Source: Herbaspirillum autotrophicum (lineage in GTDB: Bacteria > Pseudomonadota > Gammaproteobacteria > Burkholderiales > Burkholderiaceae_D). Taken from it: a DNA stretch of 64,000 bases. Positions 31,271 through 63,263 of the stretch are shown here, one piece after another. Positions within the stretch are counted from its first letter, which is position 1, and each line of letters begins with the position of its first letter. Under the pieces are notes generated by a model. It worked only from the letters and a program-made list of their open reading frames with translations, did not search any database and had not been told where the DNA came from. The stretch spans positions 1-64,000 of the forward strand of contig NZ_LFLS01000012.1 of assembly GCF_001189915.1 (NCBI RefSeq). Direction: 5' to 3'. The position numbers and the translations under genes are program-made.

Positions 31271-32839
31271 TTGAATCGCACCGGAGTTATTGTCGTCGCG
31301 ACATTGCTGTCGCTGGTTGCCGCCATCAGTTCGCTGGGCGGCATGTCTTATCTGTCATGGACGCGCGCGCAGGCCGTCGAAGAAAAACGGCTGCAAAGTT
31401 TCGCGCAACAGGCGCTGCAACGGGCGCAGATTCCATTTCATGATGCCAGCGTGGTACTGCACCGCCTGCACAACACGCACGCCGCCCCCTGCTCCAACGC
31501 GCACATTTTGCAAATGCGCAAAATCACCATCAATACCCGTAGCATCGAAGACGTCGGTTATTTTGAAAAAGGCGTGCTGAAATGCACTTCCTGGCAAAAG
31601 AGCCGCAACACCATCATCCAGACCATTCCCGATTTCATCACTGCCGACGGCATTCAGGTCAGCCAGTCGATGCTGCCGGAGATCAGCGGCAAACCGATGG
31701 TGGGCATGTTTTACGCCGGACATAAAGTATTGATCGACCCGGCCCGCTTCACCGACATCGTCCTCGAACCCGAGATTCAGATTGCCATCACCACCAGCGA
31801 TGGCCACGCGTTAAGCACCCTGCATCAACCCGACATGCAACTGGTCGGTACCCTGCTCAAGGGCACCCAGGCCAAGACCGGCATCGACTCGTTCTCGGTC
31901 GTGGTGCGCGACGGCGAACTGGCAGCCGTCGTGCTGGAACCGTATGGCAAGATCCGCGACCGCTTGTGGCAAGAACAGTTGATCTGGGTTCCGTTCGGTC
32001 TGCTGCTGGCGCTGCTGTTCATCGGCGCCGTGATCTGGATTTCGCGCCGGCGCCTGTCGCCGCTCGGCGAATTGCGTTTTGCGATTGAGCGGCGCGAATT
32101 CATCGTCCACTACCAGCCCATCATCGAACTCAAGAGCGGCATGTGCACCGGCGCCGAAGCGCTGGTCAGATGGCGTCGTCCCGATGGCAGCATCGTGCGC
32201 CCCGACCTGTTCATTCCGCTGGCCGAAGAAAGCGGCCTGATTCTGCCGATCACCGATCAGGTCATCGAGCTCGTGATTGAAGACTTGGGGACATGGCTGA
32301 CGCAACACCCGGACTTGCATATCGCCATCAACCTCAGCGCGCAAGATATCAAAACCGGCCGCGTGCTCGATGTGTTGCAGGCCAAGCTGGAAAACACCGG
32401 CATCACCAACCGGCAAATCTGGCTGGAAGCCACCGAACGCGGTTTCATGGATATGCAAGCCGCCCGCGCCACGATAGACAAAGCCCGCGCGCAGGGCTTC
32501 TGGGTCGCCATCGACGACTTCGGCACCGGCTACTCCAGCCTGTCCTATTTGCAAAAACTGCCGCTCGACGCCTTGAAAATCGACAAGTCATTCATCGATA
32601 CCATCGGCACCGATTCCGTCAGCAGCAACGTCACGCCGCACATCATCGACATGGCGAAAACCCTGCAACTGAACATCGTCGCAGAAGGCATTGAAACGCA
32701 GGAACAGGCCGATTATCTGCTGGCACGGGAGGTTGAATACGGGCAAGGCTGGCTGTATTCAAAAGCCTTGCCGGCAGCCGATTTCATGCAGTTCTGTCAG
32801 ACCCGGGCCGGCGCTGCGGCGACCGCGACGCCCGGATGA
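31271..32839 (+). CDS. CSS-motif EAL-domain c-di-GMP phosphodiesterase
   Basis: 522 residues from a TTG start with GAGGGG 5 nt upstream; the first in-frame ATG would remove the first membrane helix. Two membrane segments (residues about 5-28 and 238-256) flank a periplasmic domain with conserved Cys in APCSN and LKCTS, the redox-sensitive CSS module. The EAL domain keeps EALVRW, the metal-binding Asn (INLSAQD), Glu (EATERG), [16 protein letters not shown] and VAEGIET, so it should hydrolyse c-di-GMP to pGpG. CSS-EAL proteins are controlled by Dsb-type disulfide chemistry in the periplasm. The 3' end overlaps the convergent sigma-54 activator gene by 43 bp. Confidence 0.88.
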
Positions 32840-34020
32840 TCGGCCGCCAGGTGCCAGTCTTCGTGCGCCACATTTTCTCCGCAATCGCCGTGACCATGCG
32901 CGGCATGGCGCTTGAGCAAGGTTCTCAAGACGTTGCGCGATATGCCCAGGATTTTCGCGGTCTGCGTCTGATTGTTGCGGGCAATCGATAATGCCGCGCC
33001 GACCACCGCCGCCTCGATCTTGCCAAACGCATCTTCCTCGCCATCGTCGAGCATGGTTTCCAGAAGACGCGTCAATTTCTCTTGCAAGGATTCCGTTTCC
33101 AGCGGGCTGACCATCGCTGGCTGATCGGCCACAGCCAGATCGGCCGCCGGCGAGGTGATGCCGGCATGGGCCGGGACATTATTCTCGGCGCCTGCGGCAA
33201 AACCGCGGACCCGAATCGGCCGGTGCCCGATACGCAGATCGGCAGCGCGCATTTCACCATTGCCCGTCACGATCACGGCGTAATGAATGGTGTTTTCCAA
33301 CTCACGGATATTGCCGGGCCAGTCATAGCCGAGCAACACCTCTTCCGCATCCTTGCTGATCGTGATGCCATCAATATTGAGTTTTTCAGAATAATGCTTA
33401 ACGAAATGCCGCGCCAGCGGCAAGATGTCGCCGGGCCGGCCACACAGCGGCGGCAATTCGAGCGTGGCGATACCCAACCGGTAATACAGGTCGGCCCGAA
33501 AGTGCCCGACCTGCACTGCTGTGTACAAATCGATATTGGTAGCGGCAATCAGGCGCACATCCAGCGGCGTGGCGCGGCGTGATCCGATCTTGACGATCTG
33601 CCGCTCCTGAATCACGCGCAGCAACTTGACCTGCATGTTCAGTGGCAAATCACCGATTTCATCGAGAAACAGGGTGCCACCATTGGCGGCCTCGAACCAC
33701 CCTTGCCGCGCATGCGTGGCACCGGTGAACGCGCCGGCTTCGTGTCCGAACAACTCGGCGTCAATCAGATTTTCACTGAAGGCGCCGCAATTGACCGCAA
33801 TGAAAGGACCACGCCGCCCGCTGTGCGTATGTATATAGCGCGCCAGCAATTCCTTGCCGGTACCGGTTTCACCGATGATCAATGCCGTCGCGTCAGTCGG
33901 CGCAATCTGATCTGCCAAGGCCAGCAAGGCTTCGGAACGCGGGTCGTGAAAAACCAGGGCTTTCGCTCTGATCGAGAGGGGCGCAACACCCGAGGTCGGC
34001 AACGTAAGAAGAACGCTCAC
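32797..34020 (-). CDS. Sigma-54-dependent transcriptional activator without sensor domain (SfnR-like)
   Basis: 407 residues from a GTG start. The AAA+ domain begins almost at once: Walker A GETGTGKE (50-57), the sigma-54-contacting GAFTGA (96-101), Walker [10 protein letters not shown] (114-122) and the arginine-finger region [10 protein letters not shown] Fis-type helix-turn-helix ends the protein ([23 protein letters not shown]). No receiver, GAF or PAS domain precedes the AAA+ part, as in SfnR, the sulfone-utilisation activator of pseudomonads. Nearby operons carry -24/-12 promoters with a common upstream element, so this is the obvious candidate for their activator. How its activity is controlled is not visible; possibly by its own level. 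Confidence 0.88.
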
Positions 34021-34048
34021 AATAGTCAGTACCTGAAAAATGATGGCC

Positions 34049-34072
34049 CACCCCGCCGCGGCCGGAGGGGTG
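34049..34072 (-). promoter_or_regulatory. Hairpin/dyad ahead of the sigma-54 activator gene
   Basis: CACCCC-g-CCG / CGG-a-GGGGTG with a 4-nt loop, 29 nt upstream of the GTG start, in otherwise AT-rich DNA. It could be an operator (for example for a sulfur regulator) or an mRNA leader structure. Confidence 0.4.
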
Positions 34073-34257
34073 AAATAAATAAAGATGAAAAGCTTCTAAC
34101 GCAACGATGCGGCAAAACCTATAATCACGAATCGGACAAGACAAGTTGCGATAGAGCATATATTTACGATTGGTTACAACAATAGCGCAAACAAGTTTTC
34201 TACTTAACGAATAAAACAGCATATTCTTATACTAAAGAGTCAGAATAAATCCCCATC

Positions 34258-34950
34258 ATGACAAAAACAGACAACGAGATTGAATTCGAAGAAGCAAGCA
34301 GCACGCTGGCCGCGGATGGCGAAGACGGCTTTGCGGAACGACTGAAAAAGCTGATTGCGCTCAACGGCACTGTCAATGCGCTGGCAAAAAAAGCCGGCAT
34401 TTCCCATAGCGGTCTGCTGCGTTATCTGTCCGGTGGCGATCCCTCGCGCAAGGTACTGGTGGCACTGGCCGAGGCGGCCAATGTCGATCTGGTATGGCTG
34501 GCGACCGGACGCGGTCAAATGACCGGCGCCATGCCCAAGCAAAGCCTGACCATGTTGCCGCTCTATGACGTATCCGAATTTCCCGGCAACACGGTGATCG
34601 CCCAACAAGACAAGACGCAATTGACCGAACTCGCCTTCTGCCGCTTCTGGCTCAACCGCAACGGGCTGGACTCCGGCTGCCTGAAAGCGATGATGGTCCG
34701 CGGCGACAGCATGGCGCCCTGCATCGTCAACGGCGACACCATCCTGATCGATGAAACGCGGCAACACATCATCGATGGCAAGATTTACCTCATTCGCGAC
34801 CACGGCAATCTGCTGCTCAAGCGCGTGCAATGGGAACTGCATGGTCGTTTGCGTCTGCTCAGCGACAATCATCAGTATCGCGAATTTGATGTCGCCGCCA
34901 GCGAAGTGGAGATTGTCGGGCAAGTAGTCTGGGGTGCCCGCCTGATGTAA
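34258..34950 (+). CDS. HTH/S24 LexA-like regulator (CI-type repressor fold)
   Basis: 230 residues: an N-terminal Cro/CI helix-turn-helix (residues about 25-85, GTVNALAKKAGISHSGLLRYLSGG) and a C-terminal S24 domain with the Ser of MVRGDSMAPCI (S151) and the Lys of LLLKRV (K188). No Ala-Gly cleavage site is obvious between them, so self-cleavage is uncertain. It is divergent from the sigma-54 activator across an AT-rich 237-nt gap. There are no phage genes nearby, so it is more likely a chromosomal regulator of this island than a prophage repressor. Confidence 0.8.
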   Translation: MTKTDNEIEFEEASSTLAADGEDGFAERLKKLIALNGTVNALAKKAGISHSGLLRYLSGGDPSRKVLVALAEAANVDLVWLATGRGQMTGAMPKQSLTMLPLYDVSEFPGNTVIAQQDKTQLTELAFCRFWLNRNGLDSGCLKAMMVRGDSMAPCIVNGDTILIDETRQHIIDGKIYLIRDHGNLLLKRVQWELHGRLRLLSDNHQYREFDVAASEVEIVGQVVWGARLM

Positions 34951-35017
34951 CGCGCATGCACTGATCCGCGCAGGATGACCGGCCTCCCCGCCGCCATCCG
35001 CGCGCGCCACCGGCCCA

Positions 35018-35104
35018 TCCCGTTTTTTCCCTTCCCGTTTTTTCCCTTCCCGTTTTTTCCTCCTGTTTTTTCCTCCTGTTTTTTCTTCCTGTTTTTTCTT
35101 CCGG
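35018..35104. repeat. Tandem pyrimidine repeats with phased T6 tracts
   Basis: GTTTTTT recurs at 35022, 35037, 35052, 35065, 35078 and 35091, spacing 15, 15, 13, 13, 13. Units are CCCGTTTTTTCCCTT, then CCTGTTTTTTCCT. It lies 110-195 bp upstream of the -24/-12 promoter. Confidence 0.85.
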
Positions 35105-35142
35105 CTGTTTGATTTAAGACAGCAAGCCAACAACGCGCTTCC

Positions 35143-35161
35143 CGATTCCTTCCGCGAATCG
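35143..35161. promoter_or_regulatory. Inverted repeat upstream of exbB promoter
   Basis: CGATTC-CTTCCGC-GAATCG, about 60 bp upstream of the -24 element; a second possible activator site. Confidence 0.4.
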
Positions 35162-35173
35162 CTTCTTTTCAAC
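35160..35173 (+). promoter_or_regulatory. Putative activator element of exbB promoter (half conserved)
   Basis: CGCTTCTTTTCAAC. The promoter-proximal half TTTTCAAC is identical, in the same orientation, to the element ahead of the second TonB receptor. Its centre is exactly 49 bp from the -24 GG, the same as for the other two sites. Confidence 0.5.
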
Positions 35174-35212
35174 CAACTCTCCCGTATTTCCCTTCATTTC
35201 AGCCGTTTTTTT

Positions 35213-35229
35213 CTGGCACACATCCTGCA
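35213..35229 (+). promoter_or_regulatory. Sigma-54 promoter of the exbB-exbD-receptor operon
   Basis: CTGGCACACATCCTGCA: GG and GC are 12 bp apart as required, and only two consensus positions differ (A for G after TGGCAC, C for the first T of TTGC). Expected start near 35240. Confidence 0.8.
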
Positions 35230-35303
35230 CTGACAGAGGCGCTGCCTGTTGTACAGCGCGCATTCACGGCGGGCATTTTTCTCTACAAGTAAAAGGTAAT
35301 GAA

Positions 35304-36047
35304 ATGAATCAACTGTTCTCATCTGCAATCGGCGTAGAGGCAACGCTCTATCTGCTGTTGCTGTTTTCAGTGGCGACCTGGGCGCTACTATTGATCAAGG
35401 GCGTCCAGCATGCCCGCGTCAGCCGCAGCAATGCGCGTTATGCGCGCCAGTTCTGGCAAGCGCGGGATCTGCAAAGCGCTGCCGCCATCGCCTCCGCCGC
35501 GCCGTTCGCACGGGTAGCCAAGGCCGGTCTGATCGGACTCGGTCATGCCGATCAGCGCGGCTACGATCTGGAACACAGCGGTGATCGTCAGGACTTGCTG
35601 GAGCGCCATCTGCGTCAGCAAATACATAAAGAGCGCCGCGCGCTGGAAAGTGGTCTGGCAGTACTCGCCAGTATCGGCAGCACGGCGCCGTTCATCGGTT
35701 TGTTCGGCACCGTCTGGGGCATCATGCACGCGCTCAAGGCCATCAGCGCCAGCGGCTCTGCCAGTCTCGATGTGGTGGCCGGTCCGATTGGAGAGGCCTT
35801 GATCGCCACCGCCATCGGCATTGCAGTCGCGGTACCGGCGGTGCTGGCGTTCAACTTCTTCCAGCGCCGCAATCGCGCCGTCGGCGCCGATCTCGATGAT
35901 TTTGCGACGGACTTCATCACGCTGTCCCAAGCCACCGCTTTCCGCCACCCCGGCAGCGCTGCAACGCCAGCGACCTCGGCCAATGACAACCCGGCGGCCA
36001 AGCCGGCGGCGACAGACATCCATATCAGAAAGGCAGTGTTGAGCTGA
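35304..36047 (+). CDS. exbB: ExbB-type proton channel subunit of the TonB system
   Basis: 247 residues, MotA/TolQ/ExbB family. Three membrane segments: residues about 12-32 (LYLLLLFSVATWALLLIKG), about 125-150 (GLAVLASIGSTAPFIGLFGTVWGIM) and about 170-195 (GEALIATAIGIAVAVPAVLAFN), with the hallmark GLFGTVWGIMHAL and the TAIGIAVAVPA loop. With ExbD it uses the proton gradient to energise TonB. Good site AAAAGGTAATGAA. Overlaps exbD by 1 nt. First gene behind a sigma-54 promoter. Its first 12 codons recur in a short frame after tonB at 55030-55149. Confidence 0.92.
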   Translation: MNQLFSSAIGVEATLYLLLLFSVATWALLLIKGVQHARVSRSNARYARQFWQARDLQSAAAIASAAPFARVAKAGLIGLGHADQRGYDLEHSGDRQDLLERHLRQQIHKERRALESGLAVLASIGSTAPFIGLFGTVWGIMHALKAISASGSASLDVVAGPIGEALIATAIGIAVAVPAVLAFNFFQRRNRAVGADLDDFATDFITLSQATAFRHPGSAATPATSANDNPAAKPAATDIHIRKAVLS

Positions 36048-36451
36048 TGGCCTTTTCTACGCAAAGCGACGATGGCGTGGTCAGCGATATCAACATCACA
36101 CCGCTGGTGGATGTGATGCTGGTGCTGCTGGTGGTGTTCATCGTGACAGCGCCGCTACTGACCAATGCGATCCATGTGAATCTGCCGAAAACCACCGCTA
36201 CATCTGCGCCGACGCAACAGAAGGCGGTGCAGGTAGCGATTGACGAGCAAGGCCGGATCCGGGTGAATGAGCGACTGGTGACGGAAGACGTTCTGGAAGC
36301 GGAACTGAAGGCCTTGCAGGCCAACAATCCGGAACTGGCACTGCATCTGCAAGCCGACACCAAGGTCTCGTACGGCACGGTGGCATCCGTGATGGCCTCC
36401 ATCGAACACGCTGGCATCTCCAAGCTCTCGGTACTCACCATCGCCAAATGA
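36047..36451 (+). CDS. exbD: ExbD-type subunit of the TonB system
   Basis: 134 residues with one N-terminal membrane helix (ITPLVDVMLVLLVVFIVTAPLL) carrying the essential Asp (about residue 19) of the ExbD/TolR family, then a periplasmic domain (VQVAIDEQGRIRVNER, ALHLQADTKVSYGTVASVMASIEHAGISKLSVLT). Translationally coupled to exbB. Works with ExbB and the TonB protein encoded 19 kb away at 55202. Confidence 0.93.
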   Translation: MAFSTQSDDGVVSDINITPLVDVMLVLLVVFIVTAPLLTNAIHVNLPKTTATSAPTQQKAVQVAIDEQGRIRVNERLVTEDVLEAELKALQANNPELALHLQADTKVSYGTVASVMASIEHAGISKLSVLTIAK

Positions 36452-36501
36452 AGGTTGGCGAACTTATCTCTTTTTTTCATCTCAACAGAAACATACTTTT
36501 C

Positions 36502-38958
36502 ATGACGACAAGAAAATTCAAAGTGCGCACCATCGTCGCACTGCTGGGGGTCGCTTTTTCACCGGCATTGCTGGCGCAAACACAAAGCCAGACGGCCAAG
36601 AGCACGGCGCAGGGCGATATACAACAACTCGATAACGTAGTGGTGCTCGGCACCCGCCGCGCCGACCAGACGGTGCTCAAAAGCGCAACACCGGTGGAAG
36701 TCATCAGCTCCCGGCAACTGGAAGAAAGCGGCGCCAAGAATGTGGCCGCGGCACTGGCCAAGCTGGTGCCTTCGATCAATTTCGACCCGTTCAGCAACTC
36801 CAACAATTCCGGCGCACGTCCGATTCAATTCCGCAGCCTGGGGCCTGATGAAGTCTTGATTCTGGTGAACGGCAAGCGGCGTCACGCCTCGGCCATGCTG
36901 CATGGCAAAGCCAGCTACGGCCGCGGCTCGCAATTCGTCGACGTCAACAACATTCCGGTCAGCGCGATTTCCCGCATTGAAGTATTGCGCGACGGTGCCT
37001 CTGCGCAATACGGCTCGGACGCGATTGCCGGCGTCATCAACATTGTGCTGCGCGAAGCCGACAGCGGCGGTGAACTGAATGTACGGGTCGGCGAATTTAC
37101 CTCCGACAATCGCGGCGGCCTCGAAAAAACCTACAGCGGCTGGAAAGGCATTCAATTGGGCGAAGACGGCTTCCTGACCATCAGCGCCGAATGGAAAGAC
37201 CAGAACCGCACCCGCAATCCCTATAGCGACAGCCGGCAACAATACTTCAACGGCGATCCGCGCGAAGCTACCGCGAATCGCCATGTCGGCAGCGGCGGCA
37301 GCGCCGATATCGACTCCAAATCGTTTGCACTGAATGGCGAAGTCGGAATCAACCGGGATGTCCGGCTGTACAGCTTCCTGACCTATGCCGACCGCTACAG
37401 CCAGGCCGCCGGCGTATGGCGCCGGCCGCAAGAAGACACCAACGTCCGCGCCATCTTTCCTGACGGTTATGCGCCGGAACTGGGTACCACGTCCAAGGAT
37501 TTTGCTGCCGCCCTCGGCGTGCGTTTCGGTGATGTCGATCTGGACGGTGCCTTCGACCTGAGCGTCAATTTCGGCCAGAACGACATTGACCAGACGGTGA
37601 CCAATTCAGTCAATGCCAGCTATGGCAAAGCCAGCCCGACGCAATTCTATCTGGGCAAACTGATCAATACGCAAACCAATGTGAATGCCGATTACACCAA
37701 AAGCATTCCGAGTACATTTGCCGTCAAGCCATTAACCTTTGGCGCCGGCGCCACGGCCCGTACCGAGAGTTATGAAATCCGTCGCGGTGACCCGGCCGGC
37801 TATTCTTACGGCGGTGTCGCCATTCTGGATGGCCCCAATGCCGGCAAACCGGCAGCACCGGGGGTGCAAGGCTTCACTGCATATCAGCCGCAAGATGAAG
37901 GTACGCTCAAGCGCAATGTCTATGGCGGCTATCTGAGTCTGGAAGGTCAATTGACCGACAAATTCCAGGCCGGTATTGCTGGTCGCGCCGAGCACTATTC
38001 CGACTTCGGCTGGACCGCCACCGGCAAGCTGTCGGCGCGCTACGACTTCACCCCGGCGGTAGCGATTCGCGGCACCGCCAGCAACGGCTTCCGCGCGCCG
38101 TCAGTGGGCCAGATGGGATTCTCCAACACCACCGTGACCTGGGTCGGCGGCACCCAATACGATACCCGCATCTTCCCGGTCAATCACGCGGCAGCGCAGG
38201 CGCTCGGTGCCAAACCGCTGGATCCGGAAAAATCGACCAACTACACCATCGGCACCGTGATTCGTCCGACCAGCCGCTCCTCGGTGACGCTGGACCTGTT
38301 CCAGATCGACATCAAGGATCGCATCACCCTGACCGATAACCTGACCGGCACCTATGTCAGAAACGTATTGACCAGGGCCGGTTATCCCACGGTACAAGGG
38401 GCCAGCTTCCTGTTCAACGGTCTCGATACGCAAACCCGCGGCGTCGATATCGTCGGCAAGCAACAACTCGACCTCGCCGGCGGCCTGCTCGATCTGAGCG
38501 CGGCCTTCAATATCAGCCGCACCAAAGTCAAGAATATCAAGGCCAATCCGGCCATTCTGCAAAATACCGGCATCACGCTGATCGGCCGTCAAACCGTCGG
38601 CATCATCGAAAAGAGTTCGCCGGCCACCAAACTGGTTCTGAACGCCCGCTACGAAATCGGCTCCTGGTCGTTCAACGGCACCGCGACCCGTTACGGTGGC
38701 TTTGAAACGGTCAGCACCGTGGCCTCCGCCGACGACAGCTTCGGCCCGCAGTGGGTGGCCGATCTGAGTGGCACGTACAAGGTCACGAAGAATTTCAGCA
38801 TCACCTTCGGCGCCAACAATCTGTTTGATTCCTACCCCACCTACAGCGCCTTGCAACTGGCGCAAACCGGTGGCAGCAGCGGTCCGTACTTGAATGCCGG
38901 GGCCCCGGCAGGATCCCTCGGACGCTTTGTTTACGCGGCTGCCAACTATACGTTCTGA
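36502..38958 (+). CDS. TonB-dependent outer-membrane receptor (copy 1)
   Basis: 818 residues from the ATG at 36502, which gives a normal signal peptide (KFKVRTIVALLGVAFSPALLAQ); an earlier ATG overlapping exbD would add 18 residues. TonB box-like LDNVVVLGTRR, plug domain (VEVISSRQLEESGAKNVAAALAKLVPS, QFRSLGPDEVLILVNGKRRH, IEVLRDGASAQYGSDAIAGVINIVL) and a 22-strand barrel ending YAAANYTF. The C-terminal NNLFDSYPTY signature is present. Clear paralogue of the receptor at 60644-63097 (same plug order, SGWKG-DGFLTI, NDPRE/GDPRE). Substrate is inferred to be an organosulfur compound too large for porins. Confidence 0.92.
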   Translation: MTTRKFKVRTIVALLGVAFSPALLAQTQSQTAKSTAQGDIQQLDNVVVLGTRRADQTVLKSATPVEVISSRQLEESGAKNVAAALAKLVPSINFDPFSNSNNSGARPIQFRSLGPDEVLILVNGKRRHASAMLHGKASYGRGSQFVDVNNIPVSAISRIEVLRDGASAQYGSDAIAGVINIVLREADSGGELNVRVGEFTSDNRGGLEKTYSGWKGIQLGEDGFLTISAEWKDQNRTRNPYSDSRQQYFNGDPREATANRHVGSGGSADIDSKSFALNGEVGINRDVRLYSFLTYADRYSQAAGVWRRPQEDTNVRAIFPDGYAPELGTTSKDFAAALGVRFGDVDLDGAFDLSVNFGQNDIDQTVTNSVNASYGKASPTQFYLGKLINTQTNVNADYTKSIPSTFAVKPLTFGAGATARTESYEIRRGDPAGYSYGGVAILDGPNAGKPAAPGVQGFTAYQPQDEGTLKRNVYGGYLSLEGQLTDKFQAGIAGRAEHYSDFGWTATGKLSARYDFTPAVAIRGTASNGFRAPSVGQMGFSNTTVTWVGGTQYDTRIFPVNHAAAQALGAKPLDPEKSTNYTIGTVIRPTSRSSVTLDLFQIDIKDRITLTDNLTGTYVRNVLTRAGYPTVQGASFLFNGLDTQTRGVDIVGKQQLDLAGGLLDLSAAFNISRTKVKNIKANPAILQNTGITLIGRQTVGIIEKSSPATKLVLNARYEIGSWSFNGTATRYGGFETVSTVASADDSFGPQWVADLSGTYKVTKNFSITFGANNLFDSYPTYSALQLAQTGGSSGPYLNAGAPAGSLGRFVYAAANYTF

Positions 38959-38993
38959 GTTGAAGCACACCAACACTTCGCTGTAACAACACA

Positions 38994-39023
38994 CCCGCCG
39001 AAATAATAAACACGGCGGGCTTT
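38994..39023 (+). terminator. Hairpin between receptor and aldolase genes
   Basis: CCCGCCG - 12 nt - CGGCGGG followed by CTTT. Weak T-run, so probably partial termination within the operon. Confidence 0.5.
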
Positions 39024-39042
39024 CATGACCAAGGAGAAACCC

Positions 39043-39726
39043 ATGAGCAACATTGCCACCACTGAAGAAGTCAAAATCGACATCCTGCAATTCGTGCAAA
39101 AATTCGAGCAAGACTTTGCCGAGGCACATCAACTGCTGCGCGACAGCAAGACCTTGTCGGTGACTGAGGCCGGCAACCTGAGCCTGCGCGTGCCGGGCGA
39201 AGACAAGATTGTGATTGCCGCCTTCAACGGTCCGAAGAACGGCGTTGCTGCCGTGGTCGATTTTGAGCTCAACAGCCATGGCGGCACCTTGACTGCCAGC
39301 CTGAAAGAAGTCGCCGCATTGCACATCGCGATTTTGCGCGAACGTCCTGCGATCAATGCCGTGGTGCACACCCACTCGCCCTACCTGACCGCATGGTCCA
39401 TCGCCGGCCGCTCGCTGCCGGTACGATATGCCACGCTGCTGGGCAATGGCACCGACGATGTGCCGCTGGCCGCATGGGGCGCACGCTACGCGACGGAACC
39501 GGTAGTCGAGGTGCTGCAAAAGCACCCCAACGCCTATGCCACGCTGCTGGCAAACCATGGACCGTTTGTCTGGGGCGACACCGTAATCGGGGTAGCACGC
39601 CAGCTGGTGTTCCTGGAAGAAGCGTCGTATTTCACCTTCCTCGCAGAACAACTGGGCGGCGCCAGGGAATTGCCGGCCGGTGCCTACGAAGCAGTACAAC
39701 TGGGCAAACAAAAGTATTACGCCTGA
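39043..39726 (+). CDS. Class II aldolase/adducin family protein
   Basis: 227 residues; start chosen for AAGGAG 7 nt upstream. It keeps SLRVPGEDKIVI, the zinc-binding HxH in VVHTHSPYLTAW and the later His in LANHGPFVWG, the pattern of fuculose-phosphate aldolase-like enzymes. Such proteins cleave phosphorylated or free hydroxy-ketones, or act as decarboxylases/epimerases. Position between a TonB receptor and a binding protein in a sulfur-related island suggests cleavage of a sulfonated or thio-sugar skeleton, but that is speculation. A weak hairpin precedes it. Confidence 0.72.
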   Translation: MSNIATTEEVKIDILQFVQKFEQDFAEAHQLLRDSKTLSVTEAGNLSLRVPGEDKIVIAAFNGPKNGVAAVVDFELNSHGGTLTASLKEVAALHIAILRERPAINAVVHTHSPYLTAWSIAGRSLPVRYATLLGNGTDDVPLAAWGARYATEPVVEVLQKHPNAYATLLANHGPFVWGDTVIGVARQLVFLEEASYFTFLAEQLGGARELPAGAYEAVQLGKQKYYA

Positions 39727-39830
39727 TGTATTTCCTCTATCAGATCTGATTCGTTGATTCACCGAGCGCAGGACCCGCATGCCATCAAGGCATGCGGGTC
39801 TTGTATCGTTTTTACCTGTTGCAAAAATCC

Positions 39831-40931
39831 ATGATGAATTCCTTGTTGCGCCTGCTTTCCCTGACACTTTTTCTGCTGCTGAATGCATGCTCCCCCACAT
39901 CCGACAACACGCCGCCGGCCGCGTCCGGCACCAGCGACCTGAGCGAAAATGCTGCGGACCGGGCCGCCCTCGACCACCTGTATCAGTCGGCACGCCAGGC
40001 CGGCGAGATTGAAGCTGTCGCCTATATCGGCTCGGTACCGGAAGAGTTGCAGCCCTTGATGGATGCCTTTGGCCGCCGCTTTCCCGGTATCCGGCTCAAT
40101 CTGCAACGGATGATGGGCGACAAGCTGCATATCCGCATCGATGCCGAATTCCACAGCGGCCGCCGCGCCGCCGATCTGGTATTCGGCGGCCTGACCGACC
40201 TCAGCACGCTGACTGCCAGCCAGCGCCTGGAAAGCTATACCCCGGACACGCTGGGGGCGTTGGACAAGCAATATTATGGCCCCGGCAATTACTTCCATGC
40301 GCCGTTCAAAAAGGGATTTGCAGTCGCGTACAACCCGACCCTGATCAAGAAGAGCGAATTGCCGGCCAGCGTTGCCGAGCTGGTCGATCCCAAATGGAAG
40401 GATCGTTTCGGCTTTCCTTCGCTGGCCCGATTCGGCCCCGGCGATCTGGTGCTGGCACTATCGCAACAGCATGGCGAACTGAGCGCAGCGCAATTGCGCG
40501 CGATCAGCAACAATGGCTTGCATGGGCCGCCGACGTCGGAACTGATCCCGGCAGTGGCGCAAGGACGGCTGCTGTTTACGGTCTGGTCAGGTGCCGCTGC
40601 CATCGTCGGCCAGCAAGTGCAAGGCGCCAATCTTGACATCGCCTTCCTGCCCAAGCTCGGCGTCCACCTGAATACCGGCGTGGCGTTGCTCAAAGGCGCA
40701 CCCCATCCACACGCCGCCAAACTGGCCAAATCCTGGCTGTTCACACCGCAGGCGCAGAAAATCCTGGCGGACCTGAATTTCTACGGCACCATGCCGGACG
40801 CACCGTTGCCGCAAGGATTTCCGCCGTTGTCCGCGTATCTGAACGGCAATCAGCCGGAAGATGCGCGCCTGATCAAGCTGCTGGAAGATTTTGACGCTTA
40901 CAAAATCGCCACCAGCGGCGCCCGACGCTAG
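39831..40931 (+). CDS. Fe/thiamine-type ABC substrate-binding lipoprotein (copy 1)
   Basis: 366 residues. Lipobox LLLNAC gives lipidation at Cys20. The mature part is an extracellular-binding family 1 protein: EAVAYIGSVPEELQPLMDAFGRRFPGIRLNLQRMMGDKL, ADLVFGGL, GFAVAYNPTLIKKSELP, PHAAKLAKSWLFTPQAQKIL. It is a close paralogue of the binding protein at 50897-52027, with shared RxMGDKL and FTPQAQ-ILADLNFYG-MP. No permease or ATPase follows, so it likely feeds the transporter at 52037-54963. Last gene of the exbB operon. Confidence 0.8.
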   Translation: MMNSLLRLLSLTLFLLLNACSPTSDNTPPAASGTSDLSENAADRAALDHLYQSARQAGEIEAVAYIGSVPEELQPLMDAFGRRFPGIRLNLQRMMGDKLHIRIDAEFHSGRRAADLVFGGLTDLSTLTASQRLESYTPDTLGALDKQYYGPGNYFHAPFKKGFAVAYNPTLIKKSELPASVAELVDPKWKDRFGFPSLARFGPGDLVLALSQQHGELSAAQLRAISNNGLHGPPTSELIPAVAQGRLLFTVWSGAAAIVGQQVQGANLDIAFLPKLGVHLNTGVALLKGAPHPHAAKLAKSWLFTPQAQKILADLNFYGTMPDAPLPQGFPPLSAYLNGNQPEDARLIKLLEDFDAYKIATSGARR

Positions 40932-47303: not shown

Positions 47304-48185
47304 TCAACGCGCGATAGGAGCACCGACCAGACTGCCCCACTCCGTCCACGAACCGTCATAGACGCGCACATGAGAAAATCCCAGCAGCTCGGTCAAGACA
47401 AAAAAGGCCAGCGTCGAACGGTGACTCAAACGGCAATACACCACCGTTTCCTGTGTCGGATCGAGCCGCGCCGCGGCTGCTTTGGCTTGCAGTTCGGCCA
47501 GCGGACGCAGACGGCCGTCCTGATCCAGCAGATCGGCAAACGCAAATAACGTCGCCCCCGGAATATGACCGCCGCGCTCGGCGCCGTTATTGGCACCACC
47601 TTCCGGACTGACGCGTTTGCCGTCGTATTCTTCCGTGGTACGAATATCGAGAATGCGCAGCGTGCTGTCGTTGAGACGCTGCCTGATTTCATCGCGCCCG
47701 ATCCGTATCCGTTGTTCATTGCCGGCATCTTCCGGATGCGGATCACCGTGCAGCGGCGCAGCGATCACCGTCTGCAACGCAGCCAGTTCGACTACCGGAA
47801 AATCGTCAGCCCGCCACGCGCGCAAGCCGCCGTTGAGCACGCTGACGCGTTGCAGGCCGGCGCGCAGGAAGGCCCAGCGCGCATAGAAGCCAAACTGGGT
47901 CGGCTCGCCGTAAAACACCAGGTGGCTGTCAACATCAATCCCGGCCGCCGCCAGCCTGAGACGCAATACTTCGGCACTGGCAAACTGGCGCTGATAGTCG
48001 TCCCACAACAATTCTTTCCAGTGAAATGCATGCGCGCCGCCGATCTTGAATGCCGGTTGTTCTGCTTCCGGATGTTTGTGCTGGATGGCGATGATGCTGA
48101 TTTCCTTGCTGTCCTGATGGCGCGATAACCACGCGCTGTCAATCAGGGGCTGGATGCCAATGGCGTTGCTGGCGATGTCGTTCAT
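47304..48185 (-). CDS. Two-domain rhodanese / sulfurtransferase
   Basis: 293 residues, two tandem rhodanese domains. The active-site loop is C251-RLSHR-S in VVYCRLSHRST; the N-terminal domain (residues 10-130, with DSHLVFYGE and GGLRAWRADDFP) has lost its Cys, as usual. Start at 48185 with AAAGAGC upstream. Known reaction: transfer of sulfane sulfur from thiosulfate or mercaptopyruvate to an acceptor. First gene of the operon behind the -24/-12 promoter at 48273-48289. It may detoxify or recycle sulfur released by the downstream enzymes. Confidence 0.87.
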   Translation of the reverse strand: MNDIASNAIGIQPLIDSAWLSRHQDSKEISIIAIQHKHPEAEQPAFKIGGAHAFHWKELLWDDYQRQFASAEVLRLRLAAAGIDVDSHLVFYGEPTQFGFYARWAFLRAGLQRVSVLNGGLRAWRADDFPVVELAALQTVIAAPLHGDPHPEDAGNEQRIRIGRDEIRQRLNDSTLRILDIRTTEEYDGKRVSPEGGANNGAERGGHIPGATLFAFADLLDQDGRLRPLAELQAKAAAARLDPTQETVVYCRLSHRSTLAFFVLTELLGFSHVRVYDGSWTEWGSLVGAPIAR

Positions 48186-48272: not shown

Positions 48273-48289
48273 AGCAAATACCGAACCAG
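48273..48289 (-). promoter_or_regulatory. Sigma-54 promoter of the rhodanese operon
   Basis: On the minus strand CTGGTTCGGTATTTGCT: GG and GC 12 bp apart, TTGCT fully consensus, CA of TGGCAC replaced by TT. About 85 nt upstream of the rhodanese start. No activator element sits at the 49-bp position used by the other three promoters. Confidence 0.62.
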
Positions 48290-48334: not shown

Positions 48335-48489
48335 TTGCCGGCACTGGCGTTGCGTGCTTCTGCTGTGATCCACGCCAAGCCGTTGCGAGAATTTTATTCT
48401 GCTGCAAGCTGCTGCAAACAGAACAGCCGCTGACCAGAAAAGCGGCGGTATCGCAAGCCGCCGGTGAAAACGCAGCAACCCCTGCCAGA

Positions 48490-52027: not shown

Positions 52028-52036
52028 GACGTCGGC

Positions 52037-54963: not shown

Positions 54964-55029
54964 AATGAACCAGAAACAATTGAATGAAATGAAGTTGCAG
55001 CATCGGCGCCGCGCGCCATCCGCCGGCGC

Positions 55030-55149
55030 TCAGCGGCCGCTGGCAAGCTCCGGAAGCCGGATCCTGCCGGCATACCCGCCATCGTTGATCCGCAACGGCA
55101 GCGCGCGCGGCGGGGCGACGCCGGTTGCGGATGTGAACAGTTGAGTCAT
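55030..55149 (-). CDS. 39-codon frame whose start copies that of exbB; exbB remnant or small peptide
   Basis: Begins MTQLFTSATGVAPPRALPLR and ends ELASGR. Its first 12 codons (MTQLFTSATGVA) nearly match ExbB (MNQLFSSAIGVE), and the DNA match extends upstream through the ribosome binding site AAAAGGTAA. After that the similarity stops. It lies just after tonB, where exbB normally stands. Most likely the stub of a former tonB-exbB-exbD operon; a translated small peptide coupled to the permease is the alternative. Confidence 0.55.
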   Translation of the reverse strand: MTQLFTSATGVAPPRALPLRINDGGYAGRIRLPELASGR

Positions 55150-55201
55150 TACTTTACCTTTTAAAAATCATGTCAGAGAGATAGCGGTGACTGCTGCCGG
55201 C

Positions 55202-56014
55202 TCACTCGTCCAGCTTGAATTCGATTGGTACCGTCACCCAGCCGTCAATCGCCACATTGCCGCGCCTGGCTGGCGCAAATACCCAGTTGTTCACGGTAGC
55301 GACGGCGGCATCATCCAGCGCCTTGCGGCCGCTGCTGCGTTCCACCCCGACCTGATCGGGACGGCCGCTGGCCAGCACATGCACCCGCAACAACACTTCG
55401 CCGGACCAGCCGCGTCGCACTGCCAGTTCCGGATATTTGGGCGCGGGATTGCTGAGATAACCGGCACGCCCCATCGGTGGCGTGACGGGGGCTTCGCTGA
55501 CGGGTGTACGAGATGGCGCAGGCGATGGCGCCGCGGCGGGCGCAGCAGCCGCTGCCGGTGCAGCCTCTTGCGGCGCGGCCGGTGCCGGCGTCGCCGCCGC
55601 AGCGGTCGGCGCCGGCGCAGCGCGCGGCTGCGGTTGTGGCTTCGGCGGCGCGGGTTTCTGTACTTGCGGCGGTGCCGGTGCCGCTGGTGGCGCCGGTGCC
55701 GGCCGGCTCAACTCGACCGTCATTTGCGGAATCTTGGGTGGCTGCACCAGCTCGTCCACCGCTGCCTGCGGCAGCAAACCGCCCTTGAGCAGCAGTGCGT
55801 GGATCAGCAACGACAGCAAACCCAACAGCAGAAAATCGAGCGTGCGGCGCGGCACGTTGAGTTGTGCCTTGTCAGCCTTGGCGGTCGCTGCGGCAGGCAA
55901 GATGACGGCACCAATGCGTTCAATCACCGTCAAGTGAGGCGAGCGGTCAGCTCTGGTCGCAGGCCGGCGCGCAAAAATCTCATCTGAAAAAACGGGGGCG
56001 TGAACTGAGGTCAT
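55202..56014 (-). CDS. tonB: TonB energy-transducing protein
   Basis: 270 residues. One membrane anchor (LDFLLLGLLSLLIHALLLK), a long Pro/Ala-rich spacer (PAPAPPAAPAPPQVQKPAPPKP...) spanning the periplasm and a TonB C-terminal domain (NPAPKYPELAVRRGWSGEVLLRVHVLASG, ALDDAAVATVNNWVFAPARRGN). Start at 56014 is preferred to 56059 because the -24/-12 promoter at 56054-56069 would put transcription start near 56043, inside the longer version. It joins the ExbBD proteins encoded at 35304 and powers the two receptors. Confidence 0.9.
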   Translation of the reverse strand: MTSVHAPVFSDEIFARRPATRADRSPHLTVIERIGAVILPAAATAKADKAQLNVPRRTLDFLLLGLLSLLIHALLLKGGLLPQAAVDELVQPPKIPQMTVELSRPAPAPPAAPAPPQVQKPAPPKPQPQPRAAPAPTAAAATPAPAAPQEAAPAAAAAPAAAPSPAPSRTPVSEAPVTPPMGRAGYLSNPAPKYPELAVRRGWSGEVLLRVHVLASGRPDQVGVERSSGRKALDDAAVATVNNWVFAPARRGNVAIDGWVTVPIEFKLDE

Positions 56015-56053
56015 GACAAACCATGTACGTAGGCAAGTGAAGCTCAAAACTAC

Positions 56054-56069
56054 GCACAATTCATGCCAG
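56054..56069 (-). promoter_or_regulatory. Sigma-54 promoter of the tonB operon
   Basis: Minus strand CTGGCATGAATTGTGC: GG and GC 12 bp apart; two mismatches to CTGGCACGNNNNTTGC. Located 40 nt upstream of the chosen tonB start. Confidence 0.75.
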
Positions 56070-56083
56070 ACATACCCCGGGAA

Positions 56084-56104
56084 TTTCAGCGCTTTACGCT
56101 GAAA
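56084..56104. promoter_or_regulatory. Dyad between tonB promoter and activator element
   Basis: Arms TTTCAGCG / CGCTGAAA with a 5-nt centre, perfect. Could be a second regulator site or form part of the transcript end of the upstream operon. Confidence 0.5.
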
Positions 56105-56132
56105 AACTGGTGAAAATTCACCCGTTTTTCAG
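56099..56132. promoter_or_regulatory. 34-bp nested dyad containing the activator element of tonB
   Basis: The core GGTGAAAATTCACC (56109-56122) is a perfect palindrome. It is framed by CTGAAAAAC and GTTTTTCAG, with only one mismatched pair in 34 bp. The core recurs with one change at 63250-63263 and both are centred 49 bp from the -24 GG. The T5 after the inner stem means it may also end the cystathionine lyase transcript. Confidence 0.68.
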
Positions 56133-56203
56133 ATTGCCGCGAGGTAAGTGTTGATTGGCAGCTGCAATTTCAACAGCATGGCAGCGCCCCTGACCGGCCC
56201 GCT

Positions 56204-59746: not shown

Positions 59747-60594
59747 CGCGCGCCGACCTTCACCGCATAACGGGCCGCCATCTGTTTGGCCCACGGGTTG
59801 GATGGCAAGCGATATTTCTGTTCCAGCGCGATGATGAAACGATCCCGATGCCATTGTTCAATGATGCCGGCCAGCACGCGCTTGAGTTCAGGCTCGCCCT
59901 GCTTCAGCGCCACGCCCCATGGCAGCCGTTCCTCGCCGATCAGCTTGACCTCGAAGTTGCCCCAGTGCTTGCTGTCTTCCTTGACCAGCGAATAACCGGT
60001 GTCGTCACCGAGCGAACCGATGCAACGCCCGTCCGTGACCGCCTTCTGCACTTCGGCCAAGCCCGAGAACGCCGCGAACTTCAAGCCGCGTTCTTCATAC
60101 AGCCGCACCCAGACCGACGACGCCGGCGCGCACAAGGTTTTGCCGCGCAAATCTTCCCAGCTCTCGATGCGCGTGCTCTTCGGTGCAAACACGGCCGGTG
60201 CGGCGCTGTAGAAGCCCGGTTCGACAAAGTCTATCTCGCGCCGCCGGGCCGGCGTATCCAGCAGTGAGCTGACCAGAAAATCGCAACGGCCCTGCTTGAC
60301 CAACGTCAGGCGATTGACCGGCGTGATGCGCACCAGATTCAGTTGCAACTGCTTGCCGGACAGTGCATTGAAGCGCTGATGCAAATCGGCAATCAGCTCC
60401 CAGGTCAGCCCCGCCGGCTTGCCCGACTTGTCCAGAAAGGCAAAGCCGGGAGATTCCAGCCCGCCATAACATACCGACAACTGACCGCGATCACGAATCT
60501 TGTCGAGCGCGGTATCGCGTGCCTGCGCAGACAATGTCACGCCGCACGCCACGACCAGCGTGAGCAGATGCCACCAGATCAACGTGGGTTTCAT
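59743..60594 (-). CDS. Polar amino-acid ABC importer, periplasmic binding protein (GltI-like)
   Basis: 283 residues from the ATG at 60594 (CAGGAT upstream). Signal peptide WWHLLTLVVACGVTLSAQA, then ALDKIRDRGQLSVCYGGLESPGFAFLDKSGKPAGLTWELIADL and VSSLLDTPARRREIDFVEPGFYSAAPAVF, typical of family 3 binding proteins. Relatives bind glutamate, aspartate or cystine. Next to cystathionine lyase and a TonB receptor, a sulfur-containing amino acid or conjugate is likely. Confidence 0.86.
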   Translation of the reverse strand: MKPTLIWWHLLTLVVACGVTLSAQARDTALDKIRDRGQLSVCYGGLESPGFAFLDKSGKPAGLTWELIADLHQRFNALSGKQLQLNLVRITPVNRLTLVKQGRCDFLVSSLLDTPARRREIDFVEPGFYSAAPAVFAPKSTRIESWEDLRGKTLCAPASSVWVRLYEERGLKFAAFSGLAEVQKAVTDGRCIGSLGDDTGYSLVKEDSKHWGNFEVKLIGEERLPWGVALKQGEPELKRVLAGIIEQWHRDRFIIALEQKYRLPSNPWAKQMAARYAVKVGAR

Positions 60595-60643
60595 ATCCTG
60601 AGTCTCCTGCAAAATAAGATCATCAACGATGGCCATCAAGCCA

Positions 60644-63097
60644 TCAGAACCCGGATGCCAGACGCAAGTAGTAATACGTGCCGTAAGCCCCTACCGGTGC
60701 CTGACTGGTCGGATAAACATAACGTCCGCCGGAAGCGCGCAGTTCGGGCCGGGTCTGATCCGGATAGGAATCGAACAGATTGTTCACGCCGAACGTCAGG
60801 CTGGTTTGCTTGGTGAATTTGTATGCCAGCGTCAGATCGGTCACCCACTGCGCGCCAAACACCTGATCGCGGGACGCATCGTTGCCGGCATCGATGACGG
60901 TAAATTCGCCGTAACGCGATTGCGTAATGCCGGCGATCCAGTTGCCGATCGTATAGCGCCCGGTCAGGCGCAGCACGGAGCGCGGCGAGTACGATTCGAT
61001 ATTGCCGCGCGCCACCCGGCCGATCAGTTCCAGACCGCTGCCTGCCAGTTGCCCCGAGCTGTCCTTGACGCTGGTGATCTTGGTTACACCGTAGTTGTAG
61101 CCGATACCGAGTTCAAGATTGCCGTACTGTTTCAACGACAGGCGCTGTTTGCCGACCACGTCCACACCGCGGGTTTTGGTATCCATCGCATTCACGAAAA
61201 ACGAGGCGCCGCTGACGCCGGGAAAGCCGGCGTTGTTCAGCACCTGTTCCACCAGCGGGCCGCTCAAGGTTTCGGACAGTGTGATGCGATCCTTGATCGT
61301 GATCTGGTAGGCATCAATCGTCAGCGAGGTATTGCTGGCCGGTTGCAGCACCAGTCCGACCGAGTAATTGGTGGATTTTTCCGGCTTCAGTGACGTCGCG
61401 CCCAAGGCTCGTGCGGCCGGATTGTCGACCGGGAAATTGCGCACATCGAACGGATTGCCATTGCGGAAGGTGGTCTGGGTTGACGACAAACCGATCTGGC
61501 CCAAGGTCGGTGCCCGATAGCCGGTGCTGGCAGTAGAGCGCACACCGATGGCCGGCGTGAAATCATAGCGCGCCGACAGCTTACCGTTCCAGGTGGTGCC
61601 GAAATCGGAATAGTTTTCGACGCGGGCGGTGGTGCCCCATTGGAATTTCTTGGTCAGCTGATTTTCCAGCCCGACATACAAACCATACACATTGCGTTGG
61701 TAAGTCCCGGTATCGGCCGGCCGATAGCCGGGAAAGCCCTGCGCCCCGGCGGGCGCCCGTGTACCGGCACTGGGGCCATCCAGAATCGGCACCGAACCGG
61801 CAATCCAGGATGCCGTATCGCCCGCTTCGATTTCGAATTTTTCCTTGCGGTAGGCGGCTCCCGCCGATACCACCAGCGGCTCGGCAGAAAAGCCGACCGC
61901 CAGATTCTTGACGTAGTCCAATGTCAGATTGGCCTGCGAGTTGGTCATGCCGCCGGCATAAAAACTGCGCGGACTGGCAGCGCCAAGACTGGCATTGATC
62001 GAGAACGGGACATCGTAATCAATCTTGTTTTGGCCGTAATTGACGCCGAGGTCGAAGCGACCAATGCTGTCATTGCCATAGCGCAGGCCGGCATTGATCG
62101 CGGCATCCTGCGAGGTAGTATCGAGTAACGGTAAAAAGCCATCGGGGAACACCGAACGCACCGTGCCATTGTCATTCGGCCGCCGGAACAAGCCTTGCGA
62201 GTGGCCGACGCGATAACCGAGATTGCCGAACACATAGGCGCGCAGATCGGTGGCGATGCCCCATTCGGCATTCAACACCCCGTTGTACTCTTCCAGCGCC
62301 GGCGAGCCGACGCGCCAGGTACGCTGTGCCGACGCCGTCTTTTCGCGCGGATCATTGGCGAAGTAAAACGGTCTGGTATCCGCGCCCTCGCGTATCGTGG
62401 TCGGATTGGTTTTGAGCGCTTCCGCTGCAATCGTCAGAAAGCCGTCGCCGGGCAAGGCAAACCCCTTCCATCCGCTGAGACTTCTGCTGAAGCCATCACC
62501 CTCGCCATACACGCCTGCCTGCGTGACGATGCCGCCGCCGGTATCATCGCTGCGCAACACGATATTGATAACGCCGGCAATCGCGTCCGAACCATATTGC
62601 GCAGCGGCGCCATCGCGCAATACCTCCACCCGTTCAATCGCCGCCAGCGGAATCTTGGCCAGGTCGAATGCCTGCGCCCCTTTGCCCAGCCCGCCCTTGT
62701 TATTGACGAAGGCTGACAGATGCGCACGCTTGCCATTGATCAGCACCAGCGTCTGCGACGGCGACAACCCGCGCAAGGCCGCGGGCCGCACGGTAGCCAC
62801 GCCGTCCGAGCCGGCGGTCACATTGTATTGAAACGAAGGCGCCAGTTCCTGCAAGGCCTGATTCAGATTCGACGCGCCGGTTTCCTGCAACTGCCTGCTG
62901 GAAAAAATATCGATCGGCGCCTGGCTGCTCAGTTCCGTCACATTCTCGCGCCGCGTTCCAAGCACCACGACATTTTCCAGCCGGGTACTTTCAGATGCTT
63001 CACTGGAACCGGCAGCAACCTGCTGGGCCTGCACCGGAGACAAGAACGCCGACAGCAATGGAGCGACGAGCAATTTTCGCGACGAGAGAAGTGACAT
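60644..63097 (-). CDS. TonB-dependent outer-membrane receptor (copy 2)
   Basis: 817 residues from the ATG at 63097, giving a signal peptide (LSSRKLLVAPLLSAFLSPVQAQ); 41 codons upstream are leader. TonB box-like LENVVVLGTRR, plug (IDIFSSRQLQETGASNLNQALQELAPS, LRGLSPSQTLVLINGKRAHLSAF, VEVLRDGAAAQYGSDAIAGVINIVL), barrel with NNLFDSYPDQTRPE and C-terminal YYYLRLASGF. Same length and layout as the receptor at 36502-38958, so the two arose by duplication and now serve two transporter sets. First gene of its operon, 49 nt before the binding protein. Confidence 0.92.
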   Translation of the reverse strand: MSLLSSRKLLVAPLLSAFLSPVQAQQVAAGSSEASESTRLENVVVLGTRRENVTELSSQAPIDIFSSRQLQETGASNLNQALQELAPSFQYNVTAGSDGVATVRPAALRGLSPSQTLVLINGKRAHLSAFVNNKGGLGKGAQAFDLAKIPLAAIERVEVLRDGAAAQYGSDAIAGVINIVLRSDDTGGGIVTQAGVYGEGDGFSRSLSGWKGFALPGDGFLTIAAEALKTNPTTIREGADTRPFYFANDPREKTASAQRTWRVGSPALEEYNGVLNAEWGIATDLRAYVFGNLGYRVGHSQGLFRRPNDNGTVRSVFPDGFLPLLDTTSQDAAINAGLRYGNDSIGRFDLGVNYGQNKIDYDVPFSINASLGAASPRSFYAGGMTNSQANLTLDYVKNLAVGFSAEPLVVSAGAAYRKEKFEIEAGDTASWIAGSVPILDGPSAGTRAPAGAQGFPGYRPADTGTYQRNVYGLYVGLENQLTKKFQWGTTARVENYSDFGTTWNGKLSARYDFTPAIGVRSTASTGYRAPTLGQIGLSSTQTTFRNGNPFDVRNFPVDNPAARALGATSLKPEKSTNYSVGLVLQPASNTSLTIDAYQITIKDRITLSETLSGPLVEQVLNNAGFPGVSGASFFVNAMDTKTRGVDVVGKQRLSLKQYGNLELGIGYNYGVTKITSVKDSSGQLAGSGLELIGRVARGNIESYSPRSVLRLTGRYTIGNWIAGITQSRYGEFTVIDAGNDASRDQVFGAQWVTDLTLAYKFTKQTSLTFGVNNLFDSYPDQTRPELRASGGRYVYPTSQAPVGAYGTYYYLRLASGF

Positions 63098-63194
63098 TGA
63101 ATAGCCTGTGAGTGGGTTATCTGGTCCTCTGCCCGGCCGTGTCGAACAATGCACGGCTTGCCGGCAGAAATAAAAATGATGACCAGCCCTATCA

Positions 63195-63210
63195 GCACAA
63201 TGTGTGCCAT
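63195..63210 (-). promoter_or_regulatory. Sigma-54 promoter of the second receptor operon
   Basis: Minus strand ATGGCACACATTGTGC: full TGGCAC, GG to GC 12 bp. Expected start near 63184. Confidence 0.78.
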
Positions 63211-63249
63211 GCTTTTTCAATGCTTTTTTGATCGATCACTACGAAATTT

Positions 63250-63263
63250 GTTGAAAATTCACC
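63250..63263 (-). promoter_or_regulatory. Activator element of the second receptor operon
   Basis: Plus strand GTTGAAAATTCACC, one change from the perfect palindrome ahead of tonB; centre 49 bp from the -24 GG. Confidence 0.65.

Follow-up and report, generated by a model that had tools for sequence, protein, structure and literature searches.

We analyzed a 64,000-nt stretch of DNA from Herbaspirillum autotrophicum (positions 1–64,000 of contig NZ_LFLS01000012.1; hereafter, the window) that carries an island of genes for TonB-dependent uptake and sulfur metabolism. The reading we lean toward is that this island forms one organosulfur regulon, in which an SfnR-type activator would serve four sigma-54 promoters, and a 14-mer found ahead of three of them would be a drifted proximal copy of the activator's palindromic site. 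An earlier note on this DNA had proposed a single sigma-54 regulon marked by an element at a fixed distance of 49 bp from the promoter. One regulon is still the best reading, considering the sensorless activator, its standing as the window's sole protein with a GAFTGA motif and the sulfur genes beside its relatives, whereas the 49-bp rule does not define it.

All four of the −24/−12 promoters claimed previously were located (Table 1), with GG and GC 12 bp apart in each, the weakest −24 half being that of the site at 48274. With tonB starting at 56014 and receptor 2 at 63097, the distances from promoter to gene are ordinary. The loose −24/−12 pattern alone was slightly enriched in the window (139 matches, compared with a mean of 113.7 in shuffled sequence; 2 of 100 shuffles reached 139). 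To call the operons unlinked, as the earlier note did, is too strong, since all four are inside 28 kb. Elsewhere in the window, a strong sigma-54-like site (TTGGCACCCGGGTTGCT, 18291–18307, + strand) follows shortly after a TGA, and its score of 16.7 equals that of the exbB promoter.

Upstream of exbB, tonB and the gene for TonB-dependent receptor 2, the 14-mer GGTGAATTTTCAMC or a relative of it is centered 49.0 bp from the center of the −24 GG in all three cases, and the promoter-proximal half TTTTCAMC is present at each of them, as had been noticed before. The match to the full 14-mer is complete at tonB and receptor 2 (14/14 each) and reaches only 9/14 at exbB, where the copy (CGCTTCTTTTCAAC) consists of the half TTTTCAAC plus one base and was missed as too weak by a scan allowing three mismatches. 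The tonB copy is palindromic, with GGTGAA and TTCACC as its arms. The promoter of the fourth operon has no 14-mer at the 49-bp offset; two good sites lie 138 and 190 bp upstream of it. Two sequence features were observed nearby. About 55 bp upstream of the element at receptor 2 lies a palindrome (GGTGATCACC, 63307–63316) whose half-sites resemble those of the 14-mer and whose spacer is shorter. The region of the exbB promoter is closely preceded by a pyrimidine-rich tandem repeat (35014–35098; consensus CCCTTCCCGTTTTTT, about six copies).

A genome scan, which the earlier note had called for, covered 6,009,835 bases in 99 contigs (the window being positions 1–64000 of contig C4). The exact pattern TTTTCAMC-N40-TGGC-N8-TGC occurred three times, always in the island, compared with one match for the reversed-pattern control; allowing one mismatch added 10 matches, all outside the island. 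When 31 gaps were permitted (N27–N57), eight exact matches were obtained (control, one), of which the three at N40 were again those of the island and the remaining five were scattered elsewhere (N32, N41, N48, N50 and N50), in line with the claim that the common spacing exceeds chance. Without mismatch, GGTGAATTTTCAMC is present twice in the genome, at tonB and receptor 2, and its eight one-mismatch copies all fall inside stop-to-stop frames of more than 150 codons; the tonB copy, too, overlaps with the tonB frame if this is extended upstream. The exact pair of half-element and promoter was discarded as a sign of conservation in the family: it was found in 23 of 294 genomes, our own included, and 26 of the 29 matches lay outside our own genome, mostly in what by eye looks like coding DNA. 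The reversed-pattern control of that scan (one match) is a poor one because of coding bias, and the chance rate is therefore higher than it suggests. Phylogenetic footprinting of the 14-mer through relatives of receptor 1 likewise failed, for lack of close relatives. At L067, the locus of the closest activator, long frames aside, no sigma-54-like site scored ≥12.5.

The candidate regulator has the traits of the SfnR type, namely an AAA+ sigma-54 domain with GAFTGA, a Fis-type helix-turn-helix (HTH) and no N-terminal sensor. We found no Pfam domain before residue 24, which bears out the absence of a sensor noted earlier, and its gene product is indeed the only GAFTGA protein in the window. Among the best 25 of 31 matches listed, no curated SfnR model reached its cut-off for this protein. 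Relatives (E-value up to 1e-80) occur in at least 33 of 399 genomes of the order, our own included, a count that is a lower bound with four candidates scored per genome. In named records, such relatives adjoin sulfur genes; the one next to msuE-ssuD on a Pseudomonas aeruginosa plasmid is 53.0% identical over 90% of the query. A second activator of the H. autotrophicum genome is encoded on contig C56, directly after tonB-exbB-exbD. In this locus (L077; positions 4000–15000), which is a second TonB-ExbB-ExbD cluster and has a sensorless activator to itself, the sigma-54-like sites at 6825 (+), 6539 (−), 10261 (+) and 12257 (+) each have an upstream site of the TTGCTG-N6-CAGCAA type (≥10/12).

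This palindrome was a recurrent feature of related loci. We collected 35 loci of 8.1–24.6 kb around relatives of the activator, of ExbB or of the receptor (L155, which overlaps L074, was excluded; L077 and L159 are stretches of our own genome) and kept 40 sigma-54-like sites with a score of ≥14 in locally AT-rich DNA. Of these 40 sites, 18, in 12 of 23 loci, had TTGCTG-N6-CAGCAA (≥10/12) no more than 250 bp away, compared with 0.32 in letter shuffles, or 29 compared with 0.25 when palindromes were counted as sites. Some of them count double between divergent promoters, and L072, L073 and L075 belong to one genus. The next most frequent gaps, 9 and 3, gave 13 and 10 sites, possibly registers of the same CTG repeats. 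Outside the window, six intergenic sigma-54-like sites lie ≤0.9 kb ahead of tonB or exbB (L077, L152, L153, L156, L157 and L163), and four of them, all except those of L152 and L163, have a family site within 175 bp. Family sites are often paired, about 31 bp apart, with the start of the proximal one at −56 in L069, L072, L073 and L075 and at −57 in Variovorax (L210). Named sulfur clusters have the palindrome as well: CTGTTGCCCGGGCAACAG lies 100 bp before the −24/−12 site TTGGTACGGCCCTTGCT at msuE of P. aeruginosa, and CTGCTGATCAGGCAGCAG lies 187 bp before TTGGCACGCTCCTTGCG at msuE-sfnG of Burkholderia pyrrocinia. Both sources together yield the family consensus YTGYTG-N6-CARCAR. The shared unit therefore seems to be an upstream palindrome, often paired, of which the fixed 49 bp looks like one placement. 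Searches for palindrome plus promoter on a larger scale were set aside. Over 399 genomes, 105 had matches, mostly CTG/CAG-rich by eye, and the result was useful for one genus (−56) only; our own genome gave 10 matches compared with four in the control, none of them at N60–N90.

To carry the family palindrome into the window, a weight matrix was built from 28 sites picked by hand from 55 listed, with those of our own genome excluded. Its best positions were −108 (11.2) and −56 (2.6) at tonB, −56 (5.2) at receptor 2, −55 (1.9) at exbB, and −138 (11.4) and −190 (8.8) at the fourth operon. By these scores, tonB and the fourth promoter have good palindromes, receptor 2 a weak one and exbB a poor one. 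Nine positions of the window score ≥11, and two of these are the −108 site of tonB and the −138 site of the fourth operon. The common offset of the three TonB promoters was best at −56 (P = 0.0019), and the sum of best scores exceeded that of four randomly placed regions (P = 0.0015). A 40-site model, with named sites added, returned the same two 52-bp pairs, with P = 0.0022 for the sum and P = 0.0052 for the common offset. Those pairs, −108/−56 at tonB and −190/−138 at the fourth promoter, are the only ones of that spacing among the 132 window positions with ≥2 bits. A comparison of tonB and the fourth promoter at the same offset comes out empty because the pair is shifted by 82 bp, and the fourth promoter probably belongs to the regulon through a site pair that moved this far upstream. 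The best single link between the 14-mer and the family palindrome is the −190 site TTGCTGCGTTTTCACCGG, which is a hybrid: its left half is that of the family and is joined to the right half of the 14-mer, TTTTCACC. Judging from these matches, the local SfnR-type activator most likely has its proximal site, in drifted form, in the 14-mer. The string GCTGTTN4TTGCAGC, exact in the window only at tonB and the fourth promoter, was derived from those two sites and was not used as evidence.

Several observations weigh against this assignment. The 28 sites of the model were chosen by hand and hold three reverse-complement pairs. A model built from 12 named-genome sites gave P = 0.20 for the common offset and P = 0.037 for the sum, lost the tonB pair and yielded an unrelated 52-bp pair at 21460; with it, the −56 site of receptor 2, the best upstream of that gene under the 28-site model, ranks third. 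Two pairs at a given spacing are not unusual (mean about one, up to five), and the spacing of 52 was noticed afterwards, so that the weight of the pairs lies in both being at island promoters and not in their number. Moreover, the left half of the 14-mer departs from that of the family palindrome, exbB bears a half-site only, and none of the other genomes examined showed the 14-mer dialect ahead of a promoter. Finally, the palindrome is missing in 11 of the 23 loci, including L152 and L163, which have strong sigma-54-like sites ahead of tonB.

Such points leave room for a less probable arrangement, to which we would give about one chance in four, with two regulators: the activator would use the sites of the family type, at −108 of tonB and at −138 and −190 of the fourth operon, and the palindrome GGTGAATTTTCAMC would be the operator of another protein, for instance the regulator with HTH and S24-peptidase domains, tuning the TonB genes from a fixed distance. 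The tonB 14-mer, palindromic and fixed in place, would suit a repressor or co-activator; the fourth promoter has no element at the 49-bp offset; and the named-site model gives the 14-mer no support as an activator site. The S24 gene itself sits between the activator gene and exbB and, of 34 genomes of the genus, was found (1e-30) only in its own, as was receptor 1. However, no relatives of it were listed in the loci around relatives, at 1e-15 or at 1e-12, and its intergenic region has no copy of the 14-mer within three mismatches. The 14-mer is also linked to the palindrome of the activator, by the hybrid make-up of the −190 site and by the −56 position common to both.

It seems improbable to us that only tonB and receptor 2 are co-regulated, perhaps via duplication of a promoter, and that the resemblances at exbB and the fourth promoter are coincidental. 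The 9/14 match at exbB does lie in T-rich DNA beside the pyrimidine repeat, and TTTTCAMC anywhere in the 150 bp upstream of exbB has a probability of 0.10; at the exact offset, though, this falls to about 0.0009 (local first-order base composition). A comparison of 150 bp revealed no wider similarity between tonB and receptor 2 outside the element, so that a plain duplication is not evident. It also speaks against coincidence that, of the nine window positions scored highest by the family model, one lies at tonB and another at the fourth promoter.

The genes themselves give the three 49-bp promoters a common feature, which is TonB uptake: they precede exbB-exbD-receptor 1, tonB and receptor 2, that is, the motor genes and both receptors, and by its domains the uptake set is complete (PF03544, PF01618, PF02472, PF07715 and PF00593). 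Behind tonB on the same strand follow an ATP-binding cassette (ABC) importer, a monooxygenase of the NtaA/DmoA family (above cut-off) and a hydroxyacid dehydrogenase; in the fourth operon, the TIGR00509 match of the BisC-family oxidoreductase is below its curated cut-off. Membership of the operons past the first gene was predicted from strand and spacing. Aside from receptor 2 (49%), the best relative of receptor 1 in the 399 genomes of the order reached 41% (E-values up to 1e-120 listed, two candidates scored per genome), none of 33 congeners had one at 1e-150, and a named collection contributed six loci at 30–44%. Directly behind tonB, a remnant of an exbB leader and start was observed (55163–55092, − strand), with 72 bases aligning ungapped to 35290–35361 and none of 300 shuffles doing as well. 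This remnant, along with relatives that keep tonB-exbB-exbD together, indicates that the island probably split that operon, and such a split may explain the half-site at the exbB promoter.

Table 1. Genes, promoters and candidate activator sites of the island (window coordinates)
Feature	Position	Strand	Basis or sequence
Sensorless sigma-54 activator (enhancer-binding protein), SfnR type	32797..34020	−	PF00158 (24–187), AAA lid (195–263), HTH_8 (334–370)
HTH + S24-peptidase regulator, between activator and exbB	34258–34950	+	Domain search
exbB-exbD-receptor 1-class II aldolase-binding protein operon	35304–40931	+	Domains, strand, spacing
exbB	35304..36047	+	PF01618
exbD	36047..36451	+	PF02472
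TonB-dependent receptor 1	36448..38958	+	PF00593, PF07715
Fourth operon: rhodanese-like, TauD-like, NMT1, BisC-family oxidoreductase, ABC exporter	48185–41002	−	PF00581, PF02668, PF09084, TIGR00509, PF00664
Rhodanese-like gene, first of fourth operon	47304..48185	−	PF00581; predicted ATG start 48185
tonB	55202..56014	−	PF03544; start ATG 56014
Receptor 2 operon, with ABC importer and cysteine/methionine pyridoxal phosphate (PLP) enzyme	63097–56204	−	PF00497, PF00528, PF00005, PF01053
TonB-dependent receptor 2, first of operon	60644..63097	−	PF00593; start 63097
−24/−12 promoter, exbB-exbD-receptor 1	35214–35228	+	TGGCACACATCCTGC
−24/−12 promoter, fourth operon	48274–48288	−	TGGTTCGGTATTTGC
−24/−12 promoter, tonB	56054–56068	−	TGGCATGAATTGTGC
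−24/−12 promoter, receptor 2	63195–63209	−	TGGCACACATTGTGC
Possible weak distal exbB site (−109)	35105..35122	+	CTGTTTGATTTAAGACAG; second-best upstream, low score; may be chance
exbB copy of 14-mer, half-site only	35160..35173	+	TTTTCAAC; 9/14 letters, same offset as other two
Fourth-operon family-type site (−138)	48409..48426	−	CTGTTCTGTTTGCAGCAG; model score 11.4
Fourth-operon site (−190)	48461..48478	−	TTGCTGCGTTTTCACCGG; score 8.8; 52 bp from −138 site
tonB proximal site (−56) with 14-mer	56107..56124	−	CGGGTGAATTTTCACCAG; 14-mer complete; family model 2.6
tonB distal site (−108)	56159..56176	−	CTGTTGAAATTGCAGCTG; family model 11.2; 52 bp from proximal site
Receptor 2 proximal site (−56) with 14-mer	63248..63265	−	TCGGTGAATTTTCAACAA; 14-mer complete; best upstream, 28-site model, 5.2

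The association of the motor with the activator extends beyond the island. The closest ExbB relatives (≥59%, E-value below 1e-73, at least one above 200 residues per genome) come from six other genomes of the order (G554, G406, G317, G592, G363 and G359), and G434 falls just past the cut (4.8e-73). All six have the activator, compared with 32 of all 398 other genomes (hypergeometric P = 1.7e-7, ignoring kinship; the cut was picked after the list was seen, and the six genomes represent three families). In G317, about 150 kb separate activator and ExbB; in the other five genomes, the distance is about 5 to 30 kb. G434 is outside the activator list, though a 38% relative lies a few kb away from ExbB there. 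Among named records, a Burkholderia arboris replicon carries a 45% activator about 7 kb from tonB-exbB-exbD, whereas two plasmids have no activator annotated in the stretch shown: that of Methylocalor, with a receptor, sfnG and tonB-exbB-exbD, and that of Azotobacter, with a receptor, a luciferase-like monooxygenase, an aliphatic-sulfonate binding protein and tonB-exbB-exbD. In a P. aeruginosa plasmid cluster (L163), the motor has a Yej-type importer as its neighbor and no annotated sulfur gene in the vicinity, and the motor is therefore not always tied to sulfur.

By analogy with SfnR, the activator would accumulate when sulfate is short; as it lacks a sensor domain, the signal is probably how much of it is present. 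Activator dimers would then bind the upstream palindrome and open sigma-54 RNA polymerase at the four −24/−12 promoters, if regulation runs in the direction we assume. Going by family membership, TonB, ExbB and ExbD would energize the two receptors, the ABC importers would move compounds inward, and the monooxygenase, the TauD-like dioxygenase, the BisC-family oxidoreductase, the PLP enzyme and the rhodanese-like protein would release or handle sulfur. The targets comprise two receptors with a private motor (TonB-ExbB-ExbD), plus importers and sulfur enzymes, so switching them on would both power and feed the uptake of what we infer to be organosulfur compounds.

Known systems resemble the island in part. 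SfnR and SfnR2 are sigma-54 activators of Pseudomonas that act on sfnFG and msuEDC, and the island shares with them a sensorless sigma-54 activator beside organosulfur genes; the P. aeruginosa plasmid record has msuE, ssuD, an acyl-CoA dehydrogenase gene, a related activator and the N6 palindrome ahead of msuE. Two things set the presumed regulon of the island apart from these systems: the inclusion of ExbB, ExbD and TonB together with two receptors, and the GGTGAATTTTCAMC dialect at 49 bp from the −24 element. In domain content, all four kinds of protein match TonB-ExbB-ExbD motors with TonB-dependent receptors, but here tonB lies apart from exbB-exbD and a sigma-54 activator adjoins; ExbB relatives on named plasmids are beside SfnG or sulfonate-type genes. 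Discussions of TonB transport mostly concern iron, vitamin B12 and sugars. For organic sulfur, the SftP/AtsK system for sulfate-ester uptake in Pseudomonas putida S-313 combines a TonB receptor with a TauD-family enzyme under a LysR-type regulator, in contrast to the sigma-54 promoters and enhancer-binding protein of the island. In a search of open-licence papers, we noticed none that dealt with an organosulfur TonB system under sigma-54 control. Whether SfnR-type activators often control a private TonB/ExbB/ExbD motor with its receptors and, in addition, the island activator has a new dialect at an unusually short, fixed 49 bp is a combination for which we would put the chances a little short of even.

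If a dedicated TonB motor does stand under an organosulfur activator, this would suggest that the sulfur compounds concerned are too dilute for porins or too large to pass them, and the cell could take up organic sulfur compounds while sulfate is short. The palindrome would offer a handle for finding such systems in genomes, and paired sites of which one has drifted would naturally lend themselves to testing how much change an activator site tolerates before it stops working.

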